This document shows positions 60,749-64,000 of a stretch of 64,000 nucleotides of DNA, one piece after another. Both the position numbers and the translations under genes were made by a program. The notes beneath the pieces are model-generated. The model searched no databases, was not told where the DNA came from, and was given only the letters and a program-made list of their open reading frames with translations. Position 1 is the first letter of the stretch. Each line of letters starts with the position of its first letter. The DNA comes from Actinomycetota bacterium (lineage in GTDB: Bacteria > Actinomycetota > CADDZG01 > JAHWKV01), in contig JAUJPC010000002.1 of NCBI GenBank assembly GCA_030447305.1, positions 510,927 to 574,926 of the forward strand. The letters are read 5' to 3'.

Positions 60749-61788
60749 CGGCTTGGGTACTCGTGAACCGTATCGACCAGCAGCTTGAGGTTGTCCAGAG
60801 GGGTGTCCGGCAGCACACCGTGTCCCAGGTTGAAGATGTGGCCGGGACGTCCACCGGCTCGTCCCAGGACCTCCTCGGCCTCCTTTACCAGTCGCTCCGG
60901 GTCGCCCAACAGCGTGTACGGGTCGAGGTTGCCCTGGATGGCCTTGTCGTGGCCGATGCGTTCCCACGCGGCGTCCAGGTCGACCTTGGCATCCACCCCG
61001 ACCACTTCCGGATCGGGCGACACCATCAGCTCCAGCAGCTCTGTAGTGCCGGTGCCGAAGTGGATCCGGGGCACACCGAGCCGGGCGGTCTCGGCGAAGA
61101 TACGCGCCGAGTAAGGGAGGGCAAACTCTCGATACTCGGTGGGACTCAGGCGGCCGGCCCAGCTGTCGAACAGCTGCAGGGCCTGCGCCCCAGCCTTGAC
61201 CTGCTGGCCCATGTAATCGATGAGGACGGTGGACAGGTGCTCGAGCAGCCTGTGCCAGACGGCCGGCTCCTCCTTCATGAGGGCATGGGTGTTGGGCAGC
61301 ATCGGGTTGGGACGTCCCTCCACCAGGTAGCTGGCCAGCGTGAACGGCGCTCCGGCAAAGCCGATCATCGGCACCTCGCCGTCCAGGCGGTCGGCCACCA
61401 GCCGCATGGCTTCGAACAGCTCCGGAAGCGCCTCCTCGGCGGGGATGGACGCCAGGCGTTCTACCTGGGCGGTGGTGCGGATCGGATCGGCGACCATCGG
61501 ACCCATCCCCTCGACGATCTCGTAGTTGACCCCCAGGCATGCGACCGGCGTCATGATGTCGGCGAAGATGATGGCGGCGTCCACAGGCATCTCGGCGAGC
61601 GGCATCAGCGTGACCTCGGCGCACAGCTCCGGGGTGCCGGCCACTTCGTTGAATGAGTGCTTGCGGCGGAACTCCCGGTAGGCGGGAAGGCTGCGGCCGG
61701 CCTGTCGCATCATCCAGATTGGCGTGACGTCTACCGCTTCCCGGCGGCAGGCGCGAAGGAAACGGTTGGAACGGGGATCGGGAGCCAT
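60745..61788 (-). CDS. hemE: Uroporphyrinogen decarboxylase
   Basis: The 347-residue enzyme has VTPIWMMRQAGRSLPAYREF, GFAGAPFTLASYLVEG, QLFDSWAGRLSPTEYREF and HIFNLGHGVLPDTP. It decarboxylates uroporphyrinogen III to coproporphyrinogen III. It is the first gene of hemE-hemH-hemA-hemC-hemD; the 150-bp gap to the restriction-modification operon holds its promoter. Confidence 0.95.
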   Translation of the reverse strand: MAPDPRSNRFLRACRREAVDVTPIWMMRQAGRSLPAYREFRRKHSFNEVAGTPELCAEVTLMPLAEMPVDAAIIFADIMTPVACLGVNYEIVEGMGPMVADPIRTTAQVERLASIPAEEALPELFEAMRLVADRLDGEVPMIGFAGAPFTLASYLVEGRPNPMLPNTHALMKEEPAVWHRLLEHLSTVLIDYMGQQVKAGAQALQLFDSWAGRLSPTEYREFALPYSARIFAETARLGVPRIHFGTGTTELLELMVSPDPEVVGVDAKVDLDAAWERIGHDKAIQGNLDPYTLLGDPERLVKEAEEVLGRAGGRPGHIFNLGHGVLPDTPLDNLKLLVDTVHEYPSR

Positions 61789-61893
61789 AGTTTAAGAAGA
61801 AGATAACGCACCGGGCACAGTTGGCGATCTACGGAGCAGATCCCTGAGCCGCCTCTCTTCTGCCCTTATGATCCGAGCAATGTGAATCGGTCA

Positions 61894-61947
61894 TTGAACC
61901 ACTCTGGCGATGTTGCTAATATCGAACACACGTTCGATGAAGGGAGA
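61894..61947 (+). promoter_or_regulatory. Sigma-70-type promoter with LexA (SOS) box and ribosome site
   Basis: A -35 box TTGAAC (61894-61899), a 17-base spacer and a -10 box TAATAT (61917-61922) form a near-consensus promoter. TCGAACACACGTTCGA (61922-61937) is a perfect match to the Gram-positive LexA box TCGAAC-N4-GTTCGA, starting at the last base of the -10 box and covering the expected transcript start. AGGGAGA (61941-61947) lies five bases before GTG 61952. LexA bound here would block transcription until DNA damage. The match is seen directly; LexA control is inference. Confidence 0.8.
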
Positions 61948-61951
61948 CAGA

Positions 61952-63646
61952 GTGCTCCGGCCACGCCAGCTTGAGCTCCTGGACCAAAAGCCGCATCCTG
62001 AGGCGAGTCTTCGCGATCCGGGCACGCAGTATGGCGAGGTTTTCACCCGCCGCTGGGTCGTCGAGTTGATCCTCGATCTTGTTGGGTACGTTTCCGACGA
62101 CGATCTGGCGCAGAAAGTCGTCATCGAACCCTCCTGCGGCACCGGTGCCTTTCTCGTCCCGATTGTCGATCGATTGATCACTTCGGCCCGGGCGCACGGG
62201 CACAACATGGACTCTTTGGGTGAAGCGATTCGTGCCTGCGATCTTCTTGATGCCAACGTTCAGATTGCTCGAAAAACCGTAGCCGAGCAGCTTATGAACG
62301 CCGGGCTGGACGGGGCAAAGGCGATGGCACTGGCGACCGATTGGATTTCGACGGACGACTTCCTGCTTACCGACGAGCCGGGCCACGCGGATTTTGTCGT
62401 GGGGAATCCGCCCTATATTCGGCTCGAGGACGTCCCGGCTGCCGTCATGTCGAGATACCGGGGGCTCTGTCCGACGATGCGCGGTCGCAGCGACGTCTAT
62501 GTGGGATTCATCGAGCGGGGACTGTCCCTACTCCATGAAGGCGGCAGGCTGGGCTTCATTTGTGCCGACCGATGGATGAGGAATCAGTATGGTGCGGCCC
62601 TTCGGGAACTGGTCAGCGAGTCGTTTGCCGTGGATGCCGTTATCACCATGCACGACGTGGATGCCTTTGAGGAGGACGTGTCGGCTTATCCGGCCGTGGT
62701 CGTGCTTAGAAACGGACCGCCGGGCTCGGCAGTGGTGGCAGAGACCGGACGCGAATTTGGCCCTCAGCAAGCCGCCGGACTCAGTAAATGGATAGGTGAC
62801 GTTGGCAGTCCAGCCATCGAGACAGGCGGGGTCTCCGCAGCAAGGCTTGCCGACTGGCCCGGCGGGCGGGACTTGTGGCCGGCTGGAAGCCCTGAGATGC
62901 TGCGAGTCGTCGCCGACCTGGAACGCCGGTTTCCGCCTTTGGAAGACCAACGCACCGGTACCAGAGTCGGAATCGGCCTGGCGACCGGTTGCGACGAGGT
63001 CTACCTGACCCCGGACGCCACTCTTGTGGAATCGGATCGCTTGGTTCCAATGGTTAGGGCGTCGGACATCGCAACGGGCCGGGTGGCTTGGTCGGGGACG
63101 TTTCTCGTCAACCCATGGTACGAGGGGGGCTTGGTTCATCTGGGAGACTTCCCGCGGCTGGCCAGGTACCTTGAATCAAATAATGGCCGGCTCCGTGCTC
63201 GGCACGTCGCTCGTAAGCGACCCGCGCAGTGGTACCGCACTATCGACCGGGTCGATCCTCAGCTTACGGGTCGCCCGAAGCTGCTTTTGCCGGACCTCAA
63301 GGCTGCTGCCCACCCCGTTTTGGATTATGGAAACGCCTATCCTCACCACAACCTGTATTTCGTAGTCAGCGATGCCTGGGACCTTGAAGTGCTTGGCGGC
63401 CTTCTGCTCTCGGACGTCGCCAATCTGTTTGTCGGTACCTACTGCGTGAAGATGAGGGGTGGCTGCTACCGTTTTCAGGCGCAGTACCTGCGCCGAATCA
63501 GAGTTCCGGACCCCGAGTCAATTTCCAGCTCCCATCGTCGTGGCCTTTCGGCTGCTTTCGCAGAACGTGACGGCGAGGCGGCGACGCACATTGCTCTGCA
63601 ACTCTACGGACTTGACGGCCTTCCTTCTAAAAACGGCCGGTGGTAG
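61952..63646 (+). CDS. Type II adenine-specific DNA methyltransferase (Eco57I-like)
   Basis: The protein (564 residues from GTG 61952) has TQYGEVFTRRWVVELIL, the SAM motif VIEPSCGTGAFLVPIVDRL, the catalytic NPPYIRLED, then SDVYVGFIERGLSLL and GRLGFICADRWMRNQYG, as in gamma-type N6-adenine methylases of Eco57I-like systems. The C-terminal 300 residues are a target-recognition region. I prefer GTG 61952 because AGGGAGA precedes it and a start at 61937 or 61910 would place the LexA box within or at the start codon. Its stop overlaps the next gene (GTGGTAG), so the two are coupled. A frame from 61910 is also open. Confidence 0.85.
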   Translation: MLRPRQLELLDQKPHPEASLRDPGTQYGEVFTRRWVVELILDLVGYVSDDDLAQKVVIEPSCGTGAFLVPIVDRLITSARAHGHNMDSLGEAIRACDLLDANVQIARKTVAEQLMNAGLDGAKAMALATDWISTDDFLLTDEPGHADFVVGNPPYIRLEDVPAAVMSRYRGLCPTMRGRSDVYVGFIERGLSLLHEGGRLGFICADRWMRNQYGAALRELVSESFAVDAVITMHDVDAFEEDVSAYPAVVVLRNGPPGSAVVAETGREFGPQQAAGLSKWIGDVGSPAIETGGVSAARLADWPGGRDLWPAGSPEMLRVVADLERRFPPLEDQRTGTRVGIGLATGCDEVYLTPDATLVESDRLVPMVRASDIATGRVAWSGTFLVNPWYEGGLVHLGDFPRLARYLESNNGRLRARHVARKRPAQWYRTIDRVDPQLTGRPKLLLPDLKAAAHPVLDYGNAYPHHNLYFVVSDAWDLEVLGGLLLSDVANLFVGTYCVKMRGGCYRFQAQYLRRIRVPDPESISSSHRRGLSAAFAERDGEAATHIALQLYGLDGLPSKNGRW

Positions 63647-64000
63647 GCAAGCCCAAGGTAGCGCCGCTCAACCCGAGATCGGTGCTGCTGTCCAATCCCT
63701 ACTGCGCGCCCTTGCGTGAGATGTACCACCGGATGACGGCTGCTTCGGCAACCAGCTGGGACCAGATCGAGGATGAGTTTCTTGCGGCAATCTCAGCTTT
63801 CGACAAAGGACTTCCGCAGGTCTTCTCCGGCGACGCGGTTGAAAAGGATCTCCAAAGCAAACAGCTAAGCGGCGCCTTGCAAAACGGCAAGGGCGACTGG
63901 TTCAACAACCTCCTCGCACTGCTCCTCGAACGGTGTGCGGGAATCGAGACGCTTTACGTCGGGCGCCAGGTCCCCGGATTGATAATCGCCGAGCACAATC
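63640..64000 (+). CDS. Putative type II restriction endonuclease (XamI-like), cut by window end
   Basis: GTG 63640 overlaps the methylase stop and opens a frame that runs to the end of the window (120 codons). It reads PLNPRSVLLSNPYCAPLREM, then NGKGDWFNNLLALLLERC and VPGLIIAEHN. The NGKGD-F/W-FN-x-LLALLLE and VPGL-x-x-x-x-HN pattern is what I recall of XamI-type endonucleases, whose methylase partner is Eco57I-like; XamI itself cuts GTCGAC. The identification is from motif memory and position and only about a third of the gene may be visible. Confidence 0.6.
   Translation, partial: MVGKPKVAPLNPRSVLLSNPYCAPLREMYHRMTAASATSWDQIEDEFLAAISAFDKGLPQVFSGDAVEKDLQSKQLSGALQNGKGDWFNNLLALLLERCAGIETLYVGRQVPGLIIAEHN

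Follow-up and report, generated by a model that had tools for sequence, protein, structure and literature searches.

The DNA analyzed here, a 64,000-nucleotide stretch from an Actinomycetota bacterium (the window), closes with a type II restriction-modification (R-M) operon whose methylase gene, M, stands behind a promoter overlapped by a palindromic box. Its sequence identifies this box as the SOS operator of the host itself, and the arrangement suggests that cells may make more protective methylase upon DNA damage. We infer occupancy, induction and purpose of the box from its position and conservation and consider it quite probable that the M promoter is LexA repressed, that the SOS response raises methylase synthesis, and that selection preserves inducible methylation. 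The features concerned, in window coordinates, are the following.

61894 to 61899, + strand: −35 element TTGAAC, 17 nt from the −10 element; read from the sequence
61917 to 61922, + strand: −10 element TAATAT, its last T common to the LexA box; read from the sequence
61922 to 61937, + strand: putative LexA operator (SOS box) TCGAACACACGTTCGA; like the host lexA and recA boxes and kept at the M start of ten other loci
61942 to 61946, + strand: ribosome-binding site GGGAG, 5 nt upstream of the GTG at 61952; read from the sequence
61952 to 63646, + strand: M, N6-adenine DNA methyltransferase of the Eco57I / PaeR7I-XhoI type, 564 aa; GTG start
63640 to 64000, continuing to ~64593 (L021:4567-5520), + strand: R, putative type II restriction endonuclease, 317 aa; GTG start

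A first-pass annotation of this DNA had described a promoter TTGAAC-N17-TAATAT with the box starting on the last base of the −10 element, and direct reading of 61894 to 61937 bore this out, operator and promoter overlapping by that one base. The ribosome site and methylase start that it placed next are also there in the sequence (GGGAG at 61942 to 61946; GTG at 61952). The spacing from TCGAACACACGTTCGA to the GTG of M is 30 bp; orthologues have a G-rich stretch at the distance from the box that GGGAG has in the window, and they back the start position of M. What had been called a 16-bp perfect palindrome is one in its two 6-bp arms, which are perfect inverted repeats, but not in its ACAC centre, which is not self-complementary. 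The further claim that such a box is unlikely by chance agrees with the single exact occurrence of TCGAACNNNNGTTCGA (the 16-mer with its centre left free) in the window versus 0.00 expected, with none in 100 dinucleotide shuffles.

The product of M has EPSCGTGAF and NPPY motifs, and its initial description as an Eco57I-like methylase is confirmed by matches to Pfam PF07669 (Eco57I; 2.5e-19) and, end to end, to the PADLOC MTase_II model PDLC03313 (1.1e-198). The best-named relative is paeR7IM (45% identity, full-length homology), and by this homology CTCGAG is the likely target of M; CTCGAG showed no clear avoidance in 141 kb (67 seen versus 84.6 expected). R had been reported to follow the methylase without a gap. 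There is indeed no gap; R in fact shares its first 7 nt with the 3′ end of M, and it extends beyond the window end. R is a probable nuclease by sequence: the PADLOC REase_II model PDLC03576 matches it weakly (1.2e-8), and residues D122 and E138-A-K140, candidates for the D...E-x-K site of a PD-(D/E)XK nuclease, are invariant in all 13 aligned homologues. A Pfam search of R returned no family, the XhoI endonuclease PF04555 included; a PDB sequence search gave no match; and Foldseek comparison of an AlphaFold model (mean pLDDT 75) with the PDB gave no usable match.

The 2.88-Mb host genome has a single lexA, and its product aligns over the full length with solved LexA repressors. Three CGAAC-N4-GTTCG boxes, with one mismatch each, lie upstream of lexA itself. 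The genome holds the exact 14-mer core 13 times; its promoter-type positions include those at recA (TCGAACAGGCGTTCGA), dnaE2, dinB, an imuA-like gene, dnaB, a ribonucleotide reductase small-subunit gene, HNH-nuclease genes, and the M-R operon; three exact cores are intragenic (L006, L008, and L013). Five of the 13 have the full TCGAAC-N4-GTTCGA: recA, dnaE2, L001, L005, and the M-R operon. Comparison with the host lexA and recA promoters, proposed as a check in the first-pass annotation, places the M box in the same operator type as both. Two HNH-nuclease genes behind exact LexA-type boxes in this genome are at L001 and L012, and one is of the DUF222 type. CGAAC-N4-GTTCG is the LexA operator in Bacillus subtilis and Staphylococcus aureus (PMC9578287), and the Streptomyces venezuelae LexA operator is tCGAAC-N4-GNNCGa (PMC9380542). 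The M box resembles actinobacterial and Gram-positive LexA regulons in this operator and in its position over the promoter; it departs from them in what it precedes, as the main texts on the regulons of S. venezuelae (PMC9380542) and Clostridioides difficile name no methyltransferase or restriction gene.

Autoregulation at the promoter is known for some type II methylases, and the window's box has TCGA, the inner four bases of CTCGAG, at either end. The palindrome might then be the operator of another repressor, or the target of M itself in methylation-dependent autoregulation, rather than a LexA site. We consider this very improbable, since the same motif stands at the host lexA and recA and, among the boxed loci, CGAAC-N4-GTTCG is kept but the bases outside it are not (ACGAAC..GTTCGT in L030). 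Autoregulation through the methylase target was rejected on that pattern of variable outer TCGA and constant CGAAC-N4-GTTCG; the promoter, moreover, contains no CTCGAG.

A scan of genome contigs yielded 80 homologues of M, and whole-genome searches gave others, ~100 in total (L025 duplicates L106, and L041 duplicates L127). As for the search before homologous operons that had been recommended, the box does recur, in the same place, before M genes of other genomes, distant relatives included: besides the window, it stands at the M start of L025, L026, L027, L028, L029, L030, L041, L046, L086, and L108, many of these boxed loci being MAG contigs and L086 looking frameshifted. The spacing from the box to the aligned M start is exactly 30 bp in the window and in L025 to L030. 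A match to the 16-mer with ≤1 mismatch was found at 7 of 78 loci tested versus 0.03 expected from shuffled-arm controls. The 22.7 kb surrounding M starts held 9 exact CGAAC-N4-GTTCG cores, and the other 741 kb of these loci held 1. Pairwise identity among the 11 boxed loci is ~98% in the arms versus 30% in the flanks; the arm value is inflated because the loci were chosen for the box, whereas the shuffled-arm and position controls are unaffected by that choice. Around the box the sequence has thus become nearly random, but the box itself has persisted.

Nine of the 10 boxed hosts have a recA with the same core box. The exception is the host of L028: this MAG carries the label Hyphomicrobiales, and no such box is present at its partial recA locus. 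Misbinning of the contig or transfer of the locus may account for L028. In the recA genes of G754, G755, G760, and G762, matches fall in two pieces within one long open frame, as would be expected for an intein. Mapped onto a tree of M, the boxed state requires 4 changes versus 10 with shuffled labels, and most boxed rows cluster, but with moderate support that does not establish a single origin. About 90 of the 100 M homologues, mainly the more distant ones, are without the box, which therefore belongs to a subset of M homologues. The three M homologues on viral contigs had no box, and M itself was present in only 3 of 24 genomes of the same class. Seven unboxed homologues (L109, L121 to L124, L126, and L129) have in common a TGTAGTTT-like stretch ~25 to 30 nt before the M start, which probably serves as a −10 element or as a different operator.

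The start of the divergent hemE lies 134 bp from the box on the opposite strand, which would allow the box to serve hemE in place of M. This reading was rejected: the upstream neighbours differ among boxed loci, and hemE of the genus-mate G020, which is without the R-M genes, has no such box upstream. That the box is a chance leftover conflicts with the near-zero expectation from shuffles and position controls. Both possibilities are strongly disfavoured, and we give them next to no credence.

The genes downstream of the box are less constant than M. R of the window's type follows M in the same orientation in the window, L025, L046, L086, and L108; an XhoI-type R is co-oriented with M in L028 and L029 and convergent in L026, L027, and L030 (Pfam XhoI). 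In L041, the neighbour is of a third type and divergent from M; we take it to be the R there, since its relatives adjoin M in other loci. The box is thus kept across three R types and changing R orientation, its conservation following M. This association of the box with M rather than with R has, to our knowledge, not been described previously. R lies downstream and co-oriented in 7 of 11 boxed loci, the window with its 7-nt overlap included, as would suit SOS-inducible restriction, in which more nuclease (and methylase) is made once phage or other incoming DNA triggers the SOS response. In the remaining 4 of 11, however, R converges on M or diverges from it, which leaves only M behind the box, and no box was found near the starts of these separately transcribed R genes. 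Extra M would also modify, and hence protect, the incoming DNA. Inducible restriction as the reason for the box is consequently unlikely in our view, and the four loci with a separate, unboxed R favor a role in methylation balance after damage, the last of the purposes suggested in the first-pass annotation.

Under this preferred reading, control of M by damage, the host LexA would sit on the box over the −10/+1 region and repress the M promoter. DNA damage would activate RecA, LexA would cleave itself, and methylase synthesis would rise. Unmethylated sites may result from damage, repair synthesis, and replication restart, and R may itself trigger the SOS response by cutting; a damage-triggered boost of M would re-protect the chromosome, while M would be kept low in calm times. 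In the window host, R is in the same operon and probably rises with M, so that the M:R ratio would not be raised by that alone, and co-induction of R leaves room for a restriction role; extra restriction in such operonic cases would be secondary. Known triggers of the SOS response include R-M imbalance and post-segregational killing (PMC3874152), and R cuts could therefore feed back on M. A more tentative extension, which we hold to be somewhat less than an even prospect, is that the SOS circuit acts as a safety feedback in which R cuts derepress M and LexA replaces a dedicated controller, whichever nuclease is present.

Control of type II R-M systems, as described, involves C proteins, methylase autoregulation, and antisense promoters. 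The present locus resembles C-protein systems in a repressor-type control that would adjust M and R but differs in that the proposed regulator is the damage sensor of the host, not a controller encoded by the system; no C-like open reading frame was seen beside the operon in the open reading frame lists. Its closest named likeness is to the PaeR7I/XhoI type II systems (CTCGAG), M being a full-length paeR7IM homologue and several boxed relatives pairing with Pfam XhoI endonucleases. The paeR7I locus (L152) differs in having an annotated invertase gene upstream, and the XhoI systems differ in that the R of the window is outside the XhoI family. We know of no LexA control of paeR7I. The B. subtilis BsuM methylase operon ydiO-ydiP is reportedly LexA regulated (work attributed to Au and colleagues, 2005); it would then be another SOS-controlled R-M methylase, though one of cytosine methylases from an unrelated M family in a different phylum. 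Restriction alleviation in Escherichia coli type I systems (PMC4231737 and PMC12707154) likewise links damage to protection of the chromosome from the cell's own restriction enzyme, by ClpXP proteolysis of HsdR as opposed to transcription of M. Reviews of R-M regulation (PMC3874152 and PMC12707154) name LexA for toxin-antitoxin genes and not for type II R-M promoters, and our literature search found no described LexA-controlled type II R-M system. A LexA-controlled methylase, if real, would tie the marking of self and non-self to genome damage, suggest how R-M systems withstand repair and post-segregational stress, and imply a change of methylation state under antibiotics or phage that set off the SOS response. 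The association of the box with M and not R makes the idea of a toxin-antitoxin feedback directly testable.

The R-M genes are located between hemE and gatA (window 61788 to 64000; L154). Genus-mate G019 (L025) has R-M genes at the same place, beside hemE, and in G020 the position is taken by unrelated sequence and a gatC-like open reading frame; the site is therefore variable. Transposase/integrase-like open reading frames lie a few kilobases downstream of the operon, past the gat genes (L021:9630-12207). Compared with the same-genus locus L025, R has 89% protein identity and M only 69%. DNA identity between the two loci rises near the 3′ end of M and remains high across R (L021:4264-5460), a step that would be expected had recombination swapped R together with the last part of M.
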